Positions 1,479 to 13,876 of a stretch of DNA of 14,063 nucleotides are shown one piece after another. The notes beneath the pieces are model-generated. The model was not told where the DNA came from, did not search any database, and saw only the letters and a list, made by a program, of their open reading frames with translations. Position numbers and translations under genes: made by a program. The DNA is from Desulfobacteraceae bacterium (GTDB lineage: Bacteria > Desulfobacterota > Desulfobacteria > Desulfobacterales > BuS5), in assembly GCA_030642865.1 (NCBI GenBank), contig DAOWMW010000008.1, positions 1-14,063 on the forward strand. Direction: 5' to 3'. Each line of letters starts with the position of its first letter. Position 1 is the stretch's first letter.

Positions 1479-1517
1479 AAAATGCGGGTTTGTTAAAATG
1501 CGGATTTATTAAAATGC
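1479..1517 (+). repeat. 16-bp tandem repeat with two four-codon ORFs before atpZ
   Basis: Two full units of 16 bp (aaaatgcgg-gtttgtt at 1479-1494 and aaaatgcgg-atttatt at 1495-1510) are followed by the start of a third (aaaatgc, 1511-1517) that contains the atpZ start codon. Because 16 is not a multiple of three, each ATG lies in a different frame. The first two ATGs open tiny frames, MRVC-stop (1482-1496) and MRIY-stop (1498-1512), each ending one base before the next ATG. Confidence 0.7.
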
Positions 1518-1795
1518 AAAGGCACCGAAAAAAAATAATAAGCTTTAAACCAGCAGGAAGTATTTATGAAAACCTGACAATCGTAATGCAGCTCGGCCTT
1601 ACCATGGCAGGATGCCTTGTTTTTTGCTTTTTCATTGGATTGTATCTGGACAAATGGCTTAAAACAAGGGGTATTTTTACAACAATATTTATTATACTCG
1701 GAATAATAGGCGGCGCAAATACAGTCTACAGGCAAATTCTCGATATAATTGACGATAAACCGAAAAAAAAGAATCAGCAGGAAAATAGCAAATGA
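1514..1795 (+). CDS. atpZ: AtpZ/AtpI-like F0 assembly protein
   Basis: A 93-residue membrane protein of the AtpZ (ATPase gene 1) type. It has two hydrophobic segments, roughly residues 22-44 and 52-70. The pattern GLYLDKWLKTRG between them and GIIGGANTVYRQI after the second is typical of this family. Such proteins sit at the head of F-ATPase operons and are thought to help membrane insertion, c-ring assembly or Mg2+ handling. I chose the ATG at 1514, in the third unit of a 16-bp tandem repeat; an in-frame TTG at 1490 would add eight residues but has no ribosome binding site. The gene overlaps atpI by four bases (ATGA), so the two are translationally coupled. It is the first gene of the F0 operon. 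Confidence 0.8.
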   Translation: MQRHRKKIISFKPAGSIYENLTIVMQLGLTMAGCLVFCFFIGLYLDKWLKTRGIFTTIFIILGIIGGANTVYRQILDIIDDKPKKKNQQENSK

Positions 1796-2193
1796 TGGGA
1801 CCAGTTAGAAAAACTCAAAAAAAGTATTGCTCTATTGTCCTGTTTGCAGCTATCATGTTTGCTGCATGTTTTATTTTTGCAGGCTATAAACCCGCTGGCA
1901 AAGGCCTTATCATGGGAACACTGGCCAGCATACTAAACTTTGTATTGATGGGAGAAACCATTCCATTAAGGCTTGGACATACCAGGGGAAAAACTTTTAT
2001 AATTTCCCTTGGTTCTGTATATTTCAGATATATTATCATGGGAATTCCAATTTTTTTTGCCATTAAAATGGCTGAAATCAATTTAATTGCTACTGTTATC
2101 GGCATTTTTTCAGTTCAAATATTAATTTTATCTGAACATATGGCAAAGATAATATTATCAACCAGGAAAAAAACAGGTTTTATAAAAAAATGA
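1792..2193 (+). CDS. atpI: ATP synthase I-type protein
   Basis: A 133-residue, four-helix membrane protein of the ATP synthase I chain type. Hydrophobic segments fall near residues 14-32, 36-54, 68-88 and 95-115, and the basic tail ends TRKKTGFIKK. Position between atpZ and atpB, with ATGA overlaps at both ends (1792-1795 and 2190-2193), supports the call more than sequence motifs do, since AtpI is poorly conserved. AtpI proteins help assemble the c ring in several bacteria. An AGGA at 1779-1782 lies nine bases before the ATG; a second in-frame ATG follows at once. Confidence 0.75.
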   Translation: MMGPVRKTQKKYCSIVLFAAIMFAACFIFAGYKPAGKGLIMGTLASILNFVLMGETIPLRLGHTRGKTFIISLGSVYFRYIIMGIPIFFAIKMAEINLIATVIGIFSVQILILSEHMAKIILSTRKKTGFIKK

Positions 2194-2864
2194 ATGAACT
2201 TGGTAAATTACATCAATTAATAATCCCTTTTTTAGGACGCGACATGACATTTAATATTGAACCTATTCTTATGTCATGGATAGTTTTTGCTGCTATTTTG
2301 GTATTCGGTTATCTTGCCGTAAAAAAAAAGGGTATTATTCCAGGGAAACTACAAGTTGTAGGAGAATTATTTGTGGACCAATTGTCCAATCTTGCCGTAG
2401 ATTCCCTTGGTGAAGAGATCGGTAAAAAATATGCCCCTCTCACCTGCGCTCTCTTTATGTTTTTAATGCTCTCAAACTGGCTTGGAATAATACCCCACCT
2501 TGAAGAACCAACAAAAGATTTAAACACACCATTAGCCCTTGGAATTATGGGATTTTGCATTGCTCACTACATGGGAATAAAAGTCAAGGGCTTTAAGCGG
2601 TATATGAGCGCATACTTTGAACCGATTTTTTTCATGATGCCATTGAACTTAATCGGTGAGCTGGCAAAAGTAATTTCGATTTCCTTCCGTTTATTTGGAA
2701 ACATCATGGGCGGATCCATTATAATACTTGTGGTTTCCTATCTTACTTACAGTATTATTTTGCCCCCTTTTCTTAATGCATTTTTCGGACTTTTTGTTGG
2801 TACAATTCAGGCATTTGTCTTTACAATGCTAACCATCGTATACATTTCCGTACAGGTACAATAG
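2190..2864 (+). CDS. atpB: F0 ATP synthase subunit a
   Basis: The 224-residue stator channel protein that passes ions between the membrane half-channels and the c ring. The essential arginine is R167 in the motif ISFRLFGNIMGG, preceded by PLNLIGELAK. The C-terminal helix keeps GTIQAFVFTMLTIVYIS, with Q207 at the usual polar position. EEPTKDLNTPLALG (105-118) matches the loop before the channel helices. About five membrane segments are visible. The protein ends at SVQVQ, with almost no tail after the last helix. The start overlaps atpI by ATGA. It is followed three bases later by the multi-hairpin c gene. Family assignment is secure. Confidence 0.95.
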   Translation: MNELGKLHQLIIPFLGRDMTFNIEPILMSWIVFAAILVFGYLAVKKKGIIPGKLQVVGELFVDQLSNLAVDSLGEEIGKKYAPLTCALFMFLMLSNWLGIIPHLEEPTKDLNTPLALGIMGFCIAHYMGIKVKGFKRYMSAYFEPIFFMMPLNLIGELAKVISISFRLFGNIMGGSIIILVVSYLTYSIILPPFLNAFFGLFVGTIQAFVFTMLTIVYISVQVQ

Positions 2865-2867
2865 ACT

Positions 2868-3842
2868 ATGGTTTATGATATAGAAATTTGGGCCAAGGTA
2901 GCAGCTTTTTCAGGAGCCGGGCTTGCCATGGGCTTGGGCGCAACAGGAGTTGCGGTTGGTGAAGGATATACAGCCGGCAAGGCAAATGAAGGAATTGCCA
3001 GGAACCCGAAAATGGCCGGTGATATTTTTAAAAGTATGCTTGTGGGGCAGGCAGTTGCTGAATCAGCAGCAATTTTTGCACTGGTTGTTGCCATGGTACT
3101 ACTTTTTTCCAATTTTACAGCAGATTCTTTTATAACAGTAATAGTTCTCTTTTCTTCGGGTATCTGTATCGGCTTTGGTGCCATAGGATCCGGTATAGGA
3201 TCCGGGTTTCCCGCAGGGGAAGCATGCCTTGGCATGGCCAGACAGCCTGAAGCAAGTGCCAGCCTGGTTACCAATATGCTGATAGGATCGGCAGTCTGCC
3301 AGACTCCATCCATATTTGCCCTTATGACATCTTTTGCTCTCCTTTTTTCAAATTTTTCCCAAAGCCCTGTATCACCTACCTGGGCTGCTGTTCTGGGGGC
3401 GGGGCTTGCATCAGGAATCGGTGCCATCGGTTCAGGCGTAGGCGGGGGACTTGTTGCCGGAGCAAGTTGTGAAGGGGTTGCAAGAACCCCATCAACAGTT
3501 TCACTTTTAACCAAATCAATGCTTCTTGGCCAGGCTGTTACACAAACCACTGCCATATACGGCCTCCTGGTAGGTTTTATTCTTTTATTCAAAACCTTTC
3601 CTGCATCAGATTCAATTGTTCCGGCCATGGCTCTTTTGGCTTCCGGTTTATGCATGGGAATCGGAGCAATCGGTCCAGGTATTGGAGAGGGCAGCACCGC
3701 AGGAAGCGCAGTAAAATGGATTGCAAGGAACGAAGAATCTTCAGGAGTCATATTAAGGATGATGCTTGTTGGCCAGGCTGTTGCCGAATCAACAGGAATA
3801 TATGCCCTTGTTGTATCTCTGGTTTTAATTTTTGTTGTTTAG
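2868..3842 (+). CDS. atpE: F0 subunit c, four-hairpin (8 TM) fused form
   Basis: A 324-residue proteolipid made of four tandem c-type hairpins, roughly residues 1-82, 86-163, 170-243 and 248-324. A normal c subunit has about 80 residues and one hairpin. Hairpin 1 has E32 (VGEG) and E65-S66 with F70; hairpin 4 has E274 (IGEG) and E307-S308 with Y312. In hairpin 2 the matching positions are S112 and Q145-T146 (F150); in hairpin 3 they are G193 and Q226-T227 (Y231). Only two of the four hairpins therefore keep the ion-binding carboxylate. Loss of the carboxylate in some fused hairpins is known from eukaryotic V-ATPase proteolipids and from the duplicated c1 of Acetobacterium woodii. The reading frame is intact. 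Its ribosome binding site is weak (AGG about 11 nt before the ATG), which fits a minor ring component. A single-hairpin c gene follows. Confidence 0.93.
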   Translation: MVYDIEIWAKVAAFSGAGLAMGLGATGVAVGEGYTAGKANEGIARNPKMAGDIFKSMLVGQAVAESAAIFALVVAMVLLFSNFTADSFITVIVLFSSGICIGFGAIGSGIGSGFPAGEACLGMARQPEASASLVTNMLIGSAVCQTPSIFALMTSFALLFSNFSQSPVSPTWAAVLGAGLASGIGAIGSGVGGGLVAGASCEGVARTPSTVSLLTKSMLLGQAVTQTTAIYGLLVGFILLFKTFPASDSIVPAMALLASGLCMGIGAIGPGIGEGSTAGSAVKWIARNEESSGVILRMMLVGQAVAESTGIYALVVSLVLIFVV

Positions 3843-3890
3843 AAGGCAATTATAAATAACACAAGTTGTTCAGCAAAAAATCGGTTTTTC

Positions 3891-3914
3891 ATACGATTAT
3901 ACATACGATTATAT
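3891..3914 (+). repeat. 12-bp tandem repeat in the c-c intergenic leader
   Basis: Two adjacent 12-bp units, atacgattatac and atacgattatat, sit in the 105-nt gap between the two c genes. The stretch from here to the start codon is very AT-rich and ends in a perfect AGGAGG at 3936-3941, six bases before the ATG. AT-rich leaders upstream of a strong Shine-Dalgarno enhance atpE translation in Escherichia coli; a similar role here is inference. Confidence 0.55.
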
Positions 3915-3947
3915 TTTTAATTTGAATAAAATTACAGGAGGAACATA

Positions 3948-4196
3948 ATGGCAATAGAAGGTATCGAAATAATAAAAGCTGCGTCATACTTAGGAGCTGG
4001 TATTGCTATGGGTCTTGGTGCAATCGGTCCTGGTGTAGGGGAAGGAATGGCAGCGGCAAAAGCATGCGAGGCAATAGGAAAAAATCCTGAAGAAGCAGGA
4101 CTTTTAACAAGAACAATGCTTGTTGGCCAGGCTGTAACTGAATCAACAGGAATCTATGCCCTTGTTGTAGCATTACTTCTTTTGTTTGTTGTTTAG
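3948..4196 (+). CDS. atpE: F0 subunit c, single hairpin, Na+-type signature
   Basis: An 82-residue proteolipid of normal length with two membrane helices (about residues 9-35 and 53-80) joined by the polar loop GKNPEEAG. The carboxylate is E65, and V63, S66 and Y70 (VTESTGIY) match the Na+-binding set of Ilyobacter tartaricus c with identical numbering. Position 32, Gln in Ilyobacter, is Glu here (VGEG), giving the two-carboxylate pattern described for the Na+ ATP synthase of Fusobacterium nucleatum. Na+ coupling is therefore likely but unproven. The ribosome binding site is the strongest in the operon (AGGAGG, 3936-3941), and a hairpin follows the stop codon; both suit a subunit needed in many copies. 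Its last 27 codons are close in DNA sequence to the end of the preceding fused c gene. Confidence 0.96.
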
Positions 4197-4226: not shown

Positions 4227-4245
4227 ACGCAAAGGAATGTTATTT

Positions 4246-4701
4246 ATGCAAATTATCAGTAATATTGCCCTTATCACTATTAATGAAACTCTTATTATTC
4301 AGCTAATTTCCTTTTTGGTTTTTGTTTTTCTCTTGAATCGTTTAATGTTTCGCCCTTTAAAGTCTCAAATGAAACAAAGAGACAGCCATATTGAAACCAT
4401 TAAAGAAAAAACAAAAGAAAATAAAAAAAAGCTGCAGGGGATGCTTGAACTTATATATGACCAGGAAGCAACAGCAAAAAAAGAAGCTTTTGCAGTTACT
4501 GAACAGCTAAAAGATACTGGAACTTTTCAGGCTGCAGAGATCATGGAAATTTCGAAAAATAAAATTATTTCCTTTAAAGAAAAAATAGAAGCAGATGTTA
4601 ATTACCAGATATCCAATGCAAGAAAAAGTATCGAAAAAGAGGCAGAAATACTTGCTATGAACATAATGGAAAAAGCATTAAGCCGGAGGCTTGAACTGTG
4701 A
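4246..4701 (+). CDS. atpF: F0 ATP synthase subunit b, first of two
   Basis: A 151-residue b-type stator subunit. One N-terminal membrane helix (about residues 10-32) is followed by a short basic turn (LNRLMFRPLKSQMKQRD) and then a long charged helix rich in Lys and Glu, as expected for the peripheral stalk. I place the start at the ATG at 4246, nine bases after AAAGGA (4231-4236). An ATG at 4237 in the same frame would touch that ribosome binding site directly. The gene overlaps the next b gene by four bases (GTGA, 4698-4701). With two different b-type genes, the stalk is probably a b/b' heterodimer. Which of the two corresponds to b' is not certain. Confidence 0.88.
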   Translation: MQIISNIALITINETLIIQLISFLVFVFLLNRLMFRPLKSQMKQRDSHIETIKEKTKENKKKLQGMLELIYDQEATAKKEAFAVTEQLKDTGTFQAAEIMEISKNKIISFKEKIEADVNYQISNARKSIEKEAEILAMNIMEKALSRRLEL

Positions 4702-5282
4702 AAAGATTACGTATCCTATCAATACCCTGCTTAATTTTTCTTATTCTTTTTTTACATTTTTCCTCCACATCTTCACTGGCAGCTGAAGCAAACAACGGCT
4801 GGCGGCCTGTTTACGACACTGTTTTAATGTGGATAAATTTTGGAATTATTCTTTTTCTAACAATTAAATTCGGCAAAGCCCCTTTATTGAACTTTCTTGA
4901 AAGCTGCACTAATGATATTGCGTCAGAAATAGATCTGCTGGAAAAAGAAAAAATAAAAACAGTCGCAGATATTGACGAAACCAATGAAAAAATAGAAAAA
5001 AGCAATCTGCGGCTTGCTGAAATAAAAGAAAAAATTATTGCGAATGGAGAAAAAACAAAGCTTGAAATACTAAAAGATGCTGAAAATCAAAGTATGCTGA
5101 TGCTAAAAGCCGCGCATCAAAAAAGTAATAATTATATTGCACAGGCAAAAAATACTTTTCGCTCCGAGCTGATTGATACAGCCTTTGGTATGGCCATGGC
5201 AAAGCTTCCTGGACAAATTACAAAACGGGATAATGAAAACATATTAAAAAATTATATCAGCAATATTTCAGAAAAAGTATAG
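4698..5282 (+). CDS. atpF: F0 ATP synthase subunit b, signal-bearing form
   Basis: A 194-residue b-type stator subunit. The N-terminus (MKRLRILSIPCLIFLILFLH) looks like a signal peptide with a possible cleavage after SSLAA. A short segment (EANNGWRPVYDTV) and one membrane helix (about residues 41-58) follow, then a charged stalk helix from about residue 75. An added signal-like N-terminus on subunit b is common in deltaproteobacteria. The GTG start at 4698 is supported by GGAGG at 4685-4689, eight bases away, and overlaps the upstream stop codon. It is the last gene of the F0 operon: delta, alpha, gamma, beta and epsilon genes do not follow. Confidence 0.88.
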   Translation: MKRLRILSIPCLIFLILFLHFSSTSSLAAEANNGWRPVYDTVLMWINFGIILFLTIKFGKAPLLNFLESCTNDIASEIDLLEKEKIKTVADIDETNEKIEKSNLRLAEIKEKIIANGEKTKLEILKDAENQSMLMLKAAHQKSNNYIAQAKNTFRSELIDTAFGMAMAKLPGQITKRDNENILKNYISNISEKV

Positions 5283-5563: not shown

Positions 5564-5749
5564 ATGAAATATTTTTTATGCATCTTGGGTATGGTACTTA
5601 TTTTAGAAGGTTTTCCATATTTTATCTGTCCAGCAAAAATGAAAACCTGGCTTAAAAAGTTTTGTGAGATGCGGGAAGCAACTTTACAGAAAACCGGCTT
5701 TTTCCTTTTAGTGGCTGGATTAGTAATGCTCTGCTTCGGAACAATCTAA
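5564..5749 (+). CDS. DUF2065 family small membrane protein
   Basis: A 61-residue protein with two hydrophobic segments (about residues 3-22 and 44-60) separated by a basic, amphipathic stretch (KMKTWLKKFCEMREATLQKT). The pattern GMVLILEGFPYFICP near the N-terminus and a final GFFLLVAGLVMLCFG match the DUF2065 family, inner-membrane proteins of unknown function. AGGA at 5554-5557 precedes the ATG by six bases. The stop codon is directly followed by the queA start codon with no gap, so the two are co-transcribed and probably translationally coupled. Function is unknown. Confidence 0.8.
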   Translation: MKYFLCILGMVLILEGFPYFICPAKMKTWLKKFCEMREATLQKTGFFLLVAGLVMLCFGTI

Positions 5750-9237: not shown

Positions 9238-9260
<23 letters not shown>

Positions 9261-10353
9261 TAACGCTCAGATAAAATCGGGCATGACTTATGGGTGCCGC
9301 CATATTCGCACGGTGATTGGCAAGAATACCAGCAAAGTCACTATCTGTAATTATCCATGGTTCAAGCTCTGAAGCCATACGGCACATTGAAATGGCATGG
9401 TGAAGTCCGTCTAAAGAGTTACGTGAATGTAAAATCCCGTAAAAATCTTTTTCAGTCGCCTCAAGAATTATCAGCAACGCACTTGCCACACCTTTTGCAT
9501 AAAAAAAGTAATCATCAGATTTAAAAAAACTTACTTCAGACCCATCATCTTCTTTTTGCTTGACCAGGTTCTCATCACAGCTTCCAAGAAGATTCTGATA
9601 GGTCTTGAGAAGGGGCAACAGGTTGTCTGCCCTGTTATAAAAAGAAGCTTCACCTCTTTTTAATTTTTCCATATAAAGCGAAAACCACTTAAGGCCGGCA
9701 CGATACTTTGATTCAGGGGAAGGGAACCAGTAACGCTCAGGTTTCACCATGAACCAGTTCATGGCCTGTTCAAGGTTCTCGTCAAAGGAGACGCTTGCCC
9801 CTGTCCGTGCTATTCTCTCAGCAAGAACAACTGCAGTTCTCCGTGTAACTTCAAGGACACCCAACTGAAAATTATTAATATTATCCGTAAAATTCAAAAT
9901 ATCATTGGGCCGCCAGCCCCAGAACCTTTGATTCAGCTCATAGGCTAAAGGACGTATAATCGCAGCTACGAATTCAACCCCGACAACATTATTTCCTCCA
10001 CTATCTGGAATTCCATGCAGCCCTCCCCTGGCTGGTTCTGCTGGTGCGGCAATATGCTCAGGAACTTTTTCAGATGGGCCAAGAGGGTGTTGGGAAACTT
10101 TTTTCGACTCAACAGGATGTGGTACCGGATGAAAATCAATCTCATCAGTTTTCATCGGCAAAATATCTGCTGGTTCTTCATCCATGTGGGAGTCCATCGC
10201 ATCAACAGATTCTGCATCCGGTTTCGTGGGCACCCTGGCATATTCTGTTTTCTCTAAAAAACCTGTTGCAGCACCTATTATCCATAATACCGATATAACC
10301 AGAATTATTCCAATCATAATACGTTTTACAGCAAAGCTTTTAAATCCTTCCAT
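9238..10353 (-). CDS. DUF2333 family inner-membrane protein
   Basis: A protein of about 371 residues. A single membrane anchor lies near the N-terminus (about residues 10-30: RIMIGIILVISVLWIIGAA). A low-complexity linker rich in Pro, Glu and His follows (about 35-105), then a soluble domain, probably periplasmic. The domain keeps family-like blocks: RFWGWRPNDI, NFQLGVLEVTRRTAVVLAERI, MNWFMVKPERYWFPSPESKYRAG, FYNRADNLL and DDYFFYAKGVASALL. The function of this family is unknown. The ATG at 10351-10353 is taken as start, with purine-rich sequence upstream; a GTG at 10368 would add five residues. Its end overlaps hemW, and a palindromic repeat separates it from selB. Confidence 0.85.
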
Positions 10354-10385
10354 CCTGTCACACCCCACATCTTAATAAATGGTTA

Positions 10386-10418: not shown

Positions 10419-10579
10419 GAGCTCGCTCAAAAATAACTTAGCATTTTAAGCGTCGATCCATCCTGCCTGACTGCGTTACGAAAACGTATAAATAGCTTGA
10501 TATTCCTGCGTTTTCACGCCTTGTCAGGCAGGCGCCTCAACACTTAAAATTGCCAATTTATTTTCGATCGAATCCTAAG
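10414..10579 (-). repeat. Palindromic MITE-like repeat, complete (copy 3)
   Basis: A third copy of the long palindrome, reversed relative to the copy at 1013-1176, with the centre near 10497. Conserved internal stretches include the cgcctcaacacttaaaattg arm and the tcctgcctgactgcgttacg arm. It lies between selB and the DUF2333 gene. Its first bases on the minus strand (CTTAGG) contain the selB stop codon TAG. Confidence 0.8.
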
Positions 10580-12485
10580 AACGTCGCAATTTACGAATAT
10601 CACCGATACGTATGGTCACATTTTCAGAATCAAAATACTCGATTAAGGGGATGAGATATTTTCGAGAAACTCCAGCCAGTACTTTAAACTGCGGAGTCGT
10701 CATTTCATCATTCTGCTTAAGAAAATCGACCATCCTTTTTCTTAAATCATCCACATGCTTTGTATAAAAATACAAATCTTCCTTAACTTTTACGACATGC
10801 CCCTGCTCCAGAATAACCATTAGTATATCCAGCCCCCTCTTGTGATCTATATTTAACGTTTTTATTACATCCTTAAAATAAGGAGGCGTAAGGGGAGCAT
10901 TCTCATAAAACGTAATAATTTTTTCTCTTAACTCAGTCTGATCAACTCCAAGGGAAACAGTATGGGATGGAAGACGAACCAACTCTTCTTCGGATATTAT
11001 ATCCTTATCCTTTATCATTCTGGTAATTAAAAAATTAAAAAGCCTGGGCTCCAGTATAAATTGGAACTTGGATTTAAGCTCCTCTTTAGGCATACCATTT
11101 TTTAAAGGATTAGCCCCATGATACCTGGTTAAAACAGCATATGTTTCCTTTTTTAATTTTTCGAGAGCGTTATTATGAAGATAAATTCTATTTTCCCTGT
11201 CAGCACACAGAACAATCCTTTTTGACATAAACCCTGACAAAATATTATCCAGAGCTTTTTCGCTCACATTTCCCATAATCTTGAGATCAGAAAAAGAAAC
11301 ACCCTTAAAACCTGCAGCGTCAATGGAATGACAAATAATTTCATCATCAGAAGAATCAACAATGGAGTCGAGCATCTTCAAAACATCAGGCTTATGACGC
11401 TTATGTTTCTGCGGAATAGGATTTAAAACATACCCCCCCCCTATGGTACGGACGGGAGAATAGCTTCGTATCACAAACCTGTCAGCATTCACAAGAACAA
11501 CCGGAGTATCAAGCCTTATCTGTGCCATGGCCTCCTTGCCCGGAGAAAGCTCATCCTGATCAAGGAGCAAAATAATACCCAGGATTTCGCTGGTTCCAGC
11601 ATGAAATCTGATACGAGTACGATTTTTAAAAGATTTCCTGTTGCTCGAAAGATATTGAAATGAAACATCTATCATATAACTCGGTTTCAAAGAACCTGGC
11701 ATTGAAAGGATATCGCCACGATTTATGGAAGCCTTTTCAAGCCCCTGAAAATTTATTGCCGTGCGCATCCCTGCCACAGCTGTCTGAACATTTTCGCCAT
11801 GTACCTGCAGCCCCCTGACCCTGGAAGTTATCAAAGAGGGATATATCGTTATGGTATCACCCACATTTACAGAGCCTGTAATAAGTGTCCCTGTTATAAC
11901 TGTACCAAATCCCTTAATCGTGAAAACCCTGTCCACAGGAAGCCTGAAAATACCTGAAGAAGCATGGGACGGGATATCAGCACTTAAATCCTGAAGGGTC
12001 TGAATAAATTTGGGGATACCCTCGCCTGAAGTAGAGGAAACAGGAACAATAGGCATACCTTCTAAAAAAGTTTCATTTGTAAAATCAGTCACATCATCTT
12101 TCACCAGTTCAAGCCATTCTTCATCAACAAGGTCAATCTTTGTCAGGGCCACAAATCCATGTTTAATTCCCAAAAGAGTACATATTTCCATATGCTCCCG
12201 TGTCTGCGGCATTACCCCCTCATCTGCGGCAATTATCAAAACCAGAATATCGATTCCAGTGGCACCGGCAACCATATTTTTTACGAATTTTTCGTGCCCG
12301 GGCACATCCACGATCCCCACATGCAAATCAGCAGAAAGGTCAAGGGATGCAAATCCCAGCTCTATGGTTATACCCCGTAGCTTTTCTTCCTTTAACCGAT
12401 CAGTATCGACCCCGGTAAGGGCTTTAACAAGAGTTGTCTTCCCATGGTCAATATGCCCTGCCGTACCAAGAATAATCTGTTTCAC
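10575..12485 (-). CDS. selB: Selenocysteine-specific elongation factor SelB
   Basis: A 636-residue GTPase that delivers selenocysteinyl-tRNA to ribosomes at UGA codons marked by a SECIS hairpin. The G domain has [11 protein letters not shown] (7-17), the switch-like [10 protein letters not shown] (36-45), [12 protein letters not shown] (59-70) and TKID (114-117). EF-Tu-like domains 2 and 3 follow to about residue 360, then a C-terminal half of winged helices used to bind the SECIS RNA. The ending, with [23 protein letters not shown], is typical of the last winged helix. The GTG start is supported by AGGAG at 12494-12498, eight bases away. The TAG stop lies in the end of a palindromic repeat. 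selA and selC are not in this window. It implies that the organism makes selenoproteins. Confidence 0.96.
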
Positions 12486-13157: not shown

Positions 13158-13237
13158 ATAAAGTACAAATTCACTTTTAAATAGCTATGTCGGACAAAAA
13201 TAATGAATCAATAACATATTTTACAGGAGTACAATTT

Positions 13238-13876
13238 ATGAAACACTTGATTCTTTTGGTAACTTTCATACTTTTATTTTCCGCAGCCGTATCAGCCGAG
13301 ACCTGCTATATTACCAATGATATCAAGGTCAACATAAGGACAGGGGCAGGAACAGACTACAATATAATAGCAATGCTGAAACCAGGCAATGCAGTGGAAT
13401 TAATCGAACGTGGTACTCAATGGTCACAAATAAAGCTCCCCAATGGCCGTGAAGGATGGATTTTAACCAGATTTATCAGCTCCAGCGAACCGAATTCTCT
13501 TAAGCTGGAACAACTCCGTAAACTCCACAGGGCACTTGCAACCAAATTTCCTCTCATACTTGAAGAGAACAAGGAGGTTCGACAGGAAAGCAGGGATCTC
13601 GCCAAAAAACTTAATACTTATCAAAAACAGAATAAGGAACTACGTAAATCATATAATAAATTAAAAGATGAGACTGCAGGTTTTTTTAAGCTTCAGGAAA
13701 ATTACGACGAAACGCGCCTTCACCTTTCCGAGCATACAGAGCAAATTGAAAAACTTAACAAAGAATTAACCCATAAATATATTGCTGCAGGTTCATGCGG
13801 AGCCGGCATATTGCTTTTAGGCTTTATCATCGGTTTCAGCACTAAGCGGCAACGGAGCAAGACATCTCGTTTTTAA
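13238..13876 (+). CDS. YgiM-like SH3-domain membrane protein
   Basis: A 212-residue envelope protein. The start ATG at 13238 follows AGGAG (13225-13229) by eight bases and opens a clear signal peptide (MKHLILLVTFILLFSAAVSA, cleavage likely before E). A bacterial SH3 domain (about residues 25-80) shows VNIRTGAGTDYNIIAMLKPG and W-S-Q-I-K-L...GREGWI. A Lys/Glu-rich coiled coil (about 85-180) and a C-terminal membrane helix (GAGILLLGFIIGF) with a basic tail follow. This domain order matches the family of Escherichia coli YgiM (TIGR04211 type). The role is unknown, probably periplasmic and linked to the cell envelope. An ATG at 13187 in frame would bury the signal peptide and is rejected. It is followed 33 bases later by hflX. 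Confidence 0.88.
   Translation: MKHLILLVTFILLFSAAVSAETCYITNDIKVNIRTGAGTDYNIIAMLKPGNAVELIERGTQWSQIKLPNGREGWILTRFISSSEPNSLKLEQLRKLHRALATKFPLILEENKEVRQESRDLAKKLNTYQKQNKELRKSYNKLKDETAGFFKLQENYDETRLHLSEHTEQIEKLNKELTHKYIAAGSCGAGILLLGFIIGFSTKRQRSKTSRF

Follow-up and report, generated by a model that had tools for sequence, protein, structure and literature searches.

The stretch of DNA analyzed here, referred to as the window, comprises 14,063 nucleotides of contig DAOWMW010000008.1 from a Desulfobacteraceae bacterium and encompasses an Fo operon of a rotary adenosine triphosphate (ATP) synthase, in which a gene here called c4 (positions 2868-3842) specifies a rotor subunit of four fused hairpins with ion-binding carboxylates in the first and last hairpins only. 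It is probable that c4 is built into a hybrid c-ring of a sodium ion (Na+)-type Fo that attaches to the cell's only F1, and we infer its ring membership mainly because tyrosine 70 (Y70) of a hairpin is retained where the next hairpin has glutamate 65 (E65) and lost where it does not. In broader terms, and more tentatively, members of the order could run an enzyme with an exchangeable gearbox, one F1 taking either a full-ring proton (H+) Fo or a sodium Fo with 1 to 5 consecutive empty teeth, the ion/ATP ratio evolving by addition or removal of empty hairpins in the insert at unchanged ring size and the rotor passing an idle arc of several steps.

Ion ligands and the neighboring hairpin

Each ion site of a Na+ ring draws on two neighboring subunits: residues 32 and 65 of the first and Val63 and Ser66 of the second bind the ion, while Tyr70 and Thr67 lend support (passages in PMC3692424). 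Were c4 part of a ring, a hairpin would be expected to retain its ligands only where its neighbor has a site. Among 191 distinct multi-hairpin proteins with 831 hairpins, in which last hairpins were scored as being followed by E (that of the partner c or of the first hairpin in the next unit), 316 of 339 hairpins whose next hairpin has E65 carry Y70 versus 1 of 492 with any other next residue, and T67 behaves in parallel (311/339 versus 2/492). Sorted by the residue at position 65 of the hairpin itself and of the next one, Y70 occurs in 146/146 (E/E), 0/191 (E/Q), 170/193 (Q/E) and 1/301 (Q/Q) hairpins. The pattern is also found when last hairpins are left out (125/148 versus 1/492), in 78 representatives at 80% identity (121/137 versus 1/205), and at fixed positions within four-hairpin representatives (hairpin 2, 8/13 versus 0/33; hairpin 3, 31/38 versus 1/8). 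Residue 70 reads F-Y-F-Y in a relative with the order E-Q-E-Q (L146), and c1 of Acetobacterium woodii combines E65/F70 in its first hairpin with Q65/Y70 in its last. Two other explanations of Y70, the carboxylate of the same hairpin and the nature of the previous hairpin, agree with 0.56 and 0.23 of hairpins, respectively, and were rejected.

As far as can be read from these sequences, the rule means that hairpins stand in chain order around the ring with the N-terminal neighbor as donor, and that the sites of hairpins 1 and 4 are constrained as sites, the last hairpin serving the following subunit. In c4 itself (Table 1), hairpin 2, which precedes the empty hairpin 3, has lost its donor ligands as well, hairpin 3 retains those for hairpin 4, and hairpin 4 also bears donors for the following subunit. 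The Na+ motif (E/Q32, V63, E65, S66, T67, Y70) is complete in hairpin 4 and in the single-hairpin c encoded next to c4, while the site of hairpin 1 matches it only with donors from the preceding subunit; judged by this motif, the Fo of the operon appears to be of the Na+ type. Such a ligand rule would make the intact sites of any fused rotor readable from sequence alone.

The c4 gene and its selection

The c4 reading frame has an ATG start located 3 bases past the stop of the gene for subunit a and contains no internal stops. The Pfam family ATP-synt_C scores above its cut-off in four stretches of the protein (E 2.2e-55), and an AlphaFold2 model reached a mean predicted local distance difference test score of 95.1 and a predicted template modeling score of 0.90. 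A chance or assembly artefact as the origin of c4 is ruled out by its relatives, which include a 98% identical protein (P0002), many proteins of 322-325 amino acids with ~69-75% identity among the matches listed, and an isolate, Desulfatibacillum alkenivorans DSM 16219 (L017). A pseudogene was rejected on the basis of the ratio of non-synonymous to synonymous substitution rates (dN/dS): among 51 genes of exactly 975 bases, six pairs were retained by their synonymous rate, two of which are repeats of one gene, and the per-hairpin median dN/dS is 0.05-0.14. By this measure the inner hairpins are under purifying selection, the same as the outer ones.

Distribution and the two- to six-hairpin series

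An earlier note on this DNA had described four fused hairpins with E32/E65 and E274/E307 in the outer and S112/Q145 and G193/Q226 in the inner ones, and every one of these residue positions was confirmed. It had also regarded the four-hairpin form as unusual, which does not hold given the relatives described below. It did not mention the neighboring single-hairpin c gene, the conservation across the order, the series of two to six hairpins or the absence of F1 genes from the operon; its interpretation stands in part. Of 146 genomes sampled from the window's order, 82 have a fused c (match, E <= 1e-20), among them 56 of the 96 high-quality ones; counted by genus, the figure is 66 of 104. A few of the 82 matches are two-, three- or five-hairpin forms or fragments. 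Four-hairpin relatives occur in 37 of 80 loci retained from a scan of genome contigs, with a single-hairpin c bearing E32/E65 alongside in 35; in the remaining two the sequence ends right behind the fused gene. The loci are mostly titled Desulfobacterales and Desulfobacteraceae, with outliers from Methylomirabilis (three hairpins) and from Planctomycetota and Lentisphaerae (three hairpins, divergent).

The number of hairpins varies. A set of 121 proteins, made up of the query and 120 listed of 2,350 matches, contains 66 four-hairpin proteins (58 with E-Q-Q-E at position 65, 8 with three carboxylates), 37 with five hairpins (34 with E65 in hairpin 1 only, 3 with E in hairpins 1 and 5) and 18 with six (14 with E65 in hairpin 1 only, 3 with E in hairpins 1 and 6, and the irregular P0007, Q-Q-E-Q-Q-Q, retained in the counts). 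Two-hairpin forms are represented by loci L135 and L136, three-hairpin forms by L091, L133 and L134, and four-hairpin forms with one site by L093, L124-L126, L129, L137, L138, L140 and L144 (L124 and L140 being the same gene). In a tree of 104 hairpins, which has few columns and many unresolved forks, first hairpins form one group and all middle hairpins another, 17 of 19 last hairpins fall together, and those in the middle of five-hairpin proteins group with hairpin 2 or hairpin 3 of the four-hairpin ones. Tree and series together indicate that variation lies mainly in the count of empty middle hairpins. No description of fused or multi-hairpin c subunits in these bacteria was found in the open-licence literature.

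Some individual loci depart from the common pattern. The four-hairpin c at L146:3965-4939, with its alternating E-Q-E-Q, follows the interface rule at every hairpin. Genome G002 has two fused-c Fo loci, one two-site (L092:4343-5317) and one one-site (L093:4992-5966), in addition to an H+-type c. Three-hairpin c genes beside a single c at L048:6998-7741 (Lentisphaerae) and L046:4280-5047 (Planctomycetota) have irregular patterns (I/S, C/Q, I/E and E/E, A/S, T/Q, respectively; both retained in the counts), and are possibly independent or divergent cases.

Probable sharing of F1

The open reading frame list of the window includes no F1 genes, and none lies 3' of the b gene either. The source assembly is 67% complete in 285 contigs; no gamma gene was found in it at this completeness, and its sole alpha/beta-type match reads like Rho. 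A second Fo, arranged atpI-a-c and with a Q-type c, is located at the end of contig C113. Among high-quality genomes with at least one gamma gene, genes for a outnumber those for gamma in 47 of 53 genomes with a fused c versus 2 of 40 without (Fisher p 3e-17, kinship uncorrected; 3 of 56 high-quality fused-c genomes had no gamma match and were left out). The single-contig genomes G086, G090, G135 and G137 have two a genes and one gamma gene each, and G030, also among the single-contig genomes, has three and two. A second gamma, where present, mostly scores lower (~185-211 versus ~300 bits), and these weaker copies were taken for putative N-ATPase genes. In D. alkenivorans the F1 operon (L089), the H+ Fo (L090) and the c4 Fo (L017) lie at three separate places. 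From this surplus of a over gamma it is most likely that in the order a single F1 serves both the H+ Fo and the Na+-type Fo, an arrangement of two Fo on one F1 of which no description was found in the open-licence literature. If it is true, the unit of regulation would be the Fo module.

An orphan Fo, working without F1 or with an F1 missed by the assemblies and hence without any sharing, would suit both an operon that contains no F1 genes and the incomplete source assembly, but the surplus of a extends to single-contig genomes, and in Methylomirabilis a three-hairpin c and a single c lie within one complete F1Fo operon (L091:6816-14778), so that a hybrid ring is compatible with F1. We also know of no F1-free Fo of this gene set, and this alternative is rather unlikely.

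Stoichiometry of the ring

For 74 of 78 proteins, gene a lay within the available stretch, and in 64 of these 74 the fused c gene begins 0-4 bases past the a stop codon. Across 69 loci with at least three hairpins and a single c no more than 1,000 bases downstream, the median anti-Shine-Dalgarno pairing energy is -3.8 kcal/mol for fused c and -10.2 kcal/mol for single c, the latter being stronger in 68 of 69, although the choice of starts (best-scoring start giving 78-88 residues for the single c, first start for the fused c) favors the single c somewhat. The corresponding duplex energies in the window are -3.8 kcal/mol for c4 and -10.3 kcal/mol for the single c; the intergenic stretch at 3843-3965 folds weakly (-10.1 kcal/mol, no shuffle control). 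The weak start site of the fused c and its tight coupling to a suggest that c4 is made at about 1:1 with a, with c in excess, and that a ring holds about one c4. For comparison, the A. woodii structure in PDB 4bem has one c1 and nine c2 chains, and this enzyme is described as having 10 sites and 3.3 Na+/ATP (passages in PMC7793690).

A ring of c4 alone, for example three copies with 12 hairpins and 6 sites, the single c belonging to a different ring or being minor, would be self-consistent, as hairpin 4 retains Y70 and T67 for a following hairpin 1 with E. It is nonetheless quite unlikely, for the single c stands beside c4 in nearly all four-hairpin loci (35/37), has by far the stronger start site and is retained in a relative without c4, while the solved homologue is a mixed ring.

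Proposed mechanism and its weaknesses

The proposed hybrid ring would be closed by several single-hairpin c subunits together with about one fused c4, with hairpins ordered as in the chain and each ion site made of the carboxylates of one hairpin and the ligands on the hairpin before. Intact sites would be those of hairpin 1, to which the preceding subunit adds the missing ligands, and of hairpin 4, for which hairpin 3 does so; hairpins 2 and 3 would remain ion-free, giving two ions fewer per turn per c4 and an idle arc in each turn, which might be passed via an adapted a or via F1 and elastic coupling. The operon would contribute its own a, b' and b and two assembly genes, and its a/c-ring module would dock on the F1 also used by the ordinary H+-type Fo. 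For a ring that has N hairpins and contains one c4, ions per ATP would equal (N-2)/3, and (N-5)/3 for the six-hairpin one-site form. A lower ion/ATP ratio is likely, and fewer ions per turn than the hairpin count, as the earlier note had proposed, follows if c4 sits in the ring, to which the interface co-variation lends support.

The further claim of that note, a bias towards pumping over synthesis, is unproven. At a lower ratio synthesis needs a larger Na+ gradient, while ATP can build a larger one, and our guess is that the enzyme mainly pumps Na+ at the expense of ATP, or else acts as a synthase at a high Na+ gradient only. The direction could nevertheless go either way, because hybrid-ring enzymes can synthesize ATP: Fritz and Mueller (2007) describe the hybrid rotor of A. 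woodii in their title as able to synthesize ATP, and direction depends on the ion gradient. A Na+ gradient is plausible, since the source genome has two RnfD/NqrB-type genes and six Desulfobacteraceae strains are reported to make a Na+-pumping Rnf2 constitutively and in abundance (passages in PMC11887813).

Several observations weigh against this reading as a whole. The most serious concerns the idle arc: in engineered rings so far one E-to-Q exchange stops the rotor, a single E56Q in the fused c10 ring of PS3 abolishing synthesis, pumping and dicyclohexylcarbodiimide-sensitive hydrolysis (passages in PMC8809890), so that runs of 2 to 5 empty hairpins would be expected to halt an ordinary Fo whose a is not adapted to them, and no adaptation of a to empty hairpins was found. 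The interface rule has its exceptions: Y70 is missing from 23 of the 339 hairpins that precede an E, and among 13 representatives with E at hairpin 3, hairpin 2 carries F in 5. The 23 include a subclade with TPAIL in hairpin 3 (L092, L112, L117, L119-L121, L123, L143), in which E is retained at hairpin 4 and the donors are lost at hairpin 3; its site may be half-dismantled and bind H+ or nothing. Moreover, hairpins at the same position share ancestry, and the counts are therefore not independent events. There is no surplus of a in 6 of 53 fused-c genomes, and the case for F1 sharing rests on relatives, because the source genome is incomplete and yielded no F1. Finally, genome G069, of the same family and in two contigs, which is one of the two exceptions among the 40 genomes without fused c, has an orthologous operon Q-R-a-c-b'-b without c4 (L178:3230-6782, subunits named from open reading frames); its H+-type Fo lies apart (L179), and its F1 genes form a single operon, b'-b-delta-alpha-gamma-beta-epsilon (L181). 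The 360-base gap between the a and c genes of the c4-less operon holds no trace of a c4 remnant, and this operon represents a natural deletion or the ancestral state; c4 is thus dispensable in evolution.

That c4 is an assembly aid, a plug or a decaying gene, as its two hairpins without carboxylate, the effect of one E-to-Q exchange in PS3 (PMC8809890) and the missing gene in one relative might suggest, is very unlikely in view of dN/dS near 0.1 in all hairpins, ligand losses that track the neighbor's site as a ring predicts, and the retained position behind a.

The ion-site count of the c-ring sets the cost of ATP, and nature appears to vary this count through the fusion of hairpins that lack the carboxylate, in organisms that live close to the energetic limit. 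The forms with two to six hairpins and one, two or three sites constitute natural mutants with which to ask how far a rotor can turn ion-free. Should the gearbox exist, its idle arc of several steps would be one that present Fo torque models disallow.

The operon and its surroundings

The features of the operon are collected in Table 1. The stator arginine column of a is invariant in six aligned a subunits and matches up with solved a subunits, and the true start of the first gene may lie downstream of the listed TTG.

Table 1. Genes, hairpins and signals of the Fo operon, by position in the window.
Feature	Position	Strand	Evidence and residues
AtpQ/AtpZ-like gene (ATPase_gene1), first of the operon	1490..1795	+	PF09527, 56.4 bits
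AtpI/AtpR-like gene (ATP-synt_I)	1792..2193	+	PF03899, 35.2 bits
Fo subunit a	2190..2864	+	PF00119, 177.3 bits; stator Arg167 in SFRLFGN
c4, four-hairpin rotor subunit	2868..3842	+	324 amino acids; PF00137 x4
c4 hairpin 1, site-bearing	2868..3116	+	E32 (codon 2961-2963), E65 (3060-3062), F70
c4 hairpin 2, empty	3117..3359	+	S112, Q145 (codon 3300-3302), P147/F150
c4 hairpin 3, empty	3360..3605	+	G193, Q226 (codon 3543-3545), T228/Y231 retained
c4 hairpin 4, site-bearing	3606..3839	+	E274 (codon 3687-3689), E307 (3786-3788), S308/T309/Y312
AGGAGG ribosome-binding site of single-hairpin c gene	3936..3941	+	sequence; duplex energy
Single-hairpin c	3948..4196	+	82 amino acids; PF00137, 68.6 bits; E32/V63/E65/S66/T67/Y70
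b'-type peripheral stalk subunit	4237..4701	+	PF00430, 53.5 bits; best NCBIfam model is B', below cut-off
b-type peripheral stalk subunit, last gene of the operon	4698..5282	+	PF00430, 44.4 bits

Ahead of the operon lies a minus-strand gene that is not of the F1 kind (131-913). Other genes of the window include two for proteins annotated without function, DUF2065 (5564-5749, plus strand) and DUF2333 (9238-10368, minus strand), one at 10575-12485 (minus strand) whose product, by its sequence, we take to be a SelB-like selenocysteine elongation factor, and one for an SH3-domain protein of the TIGR04211 family (13187-13876, plus strand).

Comparison with known systems

Membership in two related classes was rejected. 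In N-ATPases, beta and epsilon genes stand ahead of Q-R-a-c; these are lacking here, the minus-strand gene occupying that place, and the curated N-ATPase models give 121.4 bits for a (cut-off 302.1) and 72.3 for the single c (cut-off 130.85), c4 reaching 161.7 bits with the c model only as a sum over four hairpins. Both atpR and the upstream beta/epsilon genes are mentioned for N-ATPases (passages in PMC4154653). For a V/A-type K subunit, the best curated model scores 77.1 bits against a cut-off of 211. The V/A-type multi-hairpin proteolipids (Enterococcus hirae NtpK, eukaryotic c, Methanocaldococcus jannaschii, Methanopyrus kandleri) are likewise fused, with ligands lost in some (passages in PMC2359735), but they belong to V/A enzymes and not to an F-type operon beside a single-hairpin c; that of M. 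kandleri is described as having 13 hairpins with ligands in each (same source).

In the c-ring of Fusobacterium nucleatum all sites are equal and the hairpins unfused. Its two-carboxylate site (PDB 3zk1/3zk2; passages in PMC3692424) is matched by E32, V63, E65, S66, T67 and Y70 in the single c and in hairpin 4, whose own residues are E274, E307, S308, T309 and Y312. A full extra Fo set without F1 has been reported as an ectopic duplicate in Desulfococcus oleovorans, where its a and c subunits cluster with those of Thermotogae (Koumandou and Kossida 2014, PMC4154653), and is probably of the same operon type as the c4 operon; that paper explains it by a duplication or transfer confined to one species, and the words 'hairpin' and 'fused' are absent from its text.

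The best match to c4 in both sequence and fold is the F/V-hybrid rotor of the Na+ F1Fo of A. woodii (c1 with c2/c3; PDB 4bem), in agreement with the earlier note, which had drawn this comparison from fused hairpins with lost carboxylates. As in A. woodii, a fused c of the Na+ type with fewer carboxylates than hairpins and with donor ligands in its last hairpin is encoded side by side with a single-hairpin c. In contrast to A. woodii c1, which has two hairpins, one of them empty, the present forms have 2-6 hairpins, 1-5 of them empty, occur in another phylum and carry E32 instead of Q in the first transmembrane helix; the F1 genes are absent from the operon of the window and present in that of the Methylomirabilis relative (L091). 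In conclusion, c4 can be regarded as a variant of the hybrid-rotor kind that is widespread in its order, with a good argument for the sharing of F1 and a strong sequence argument for a function in the ring.
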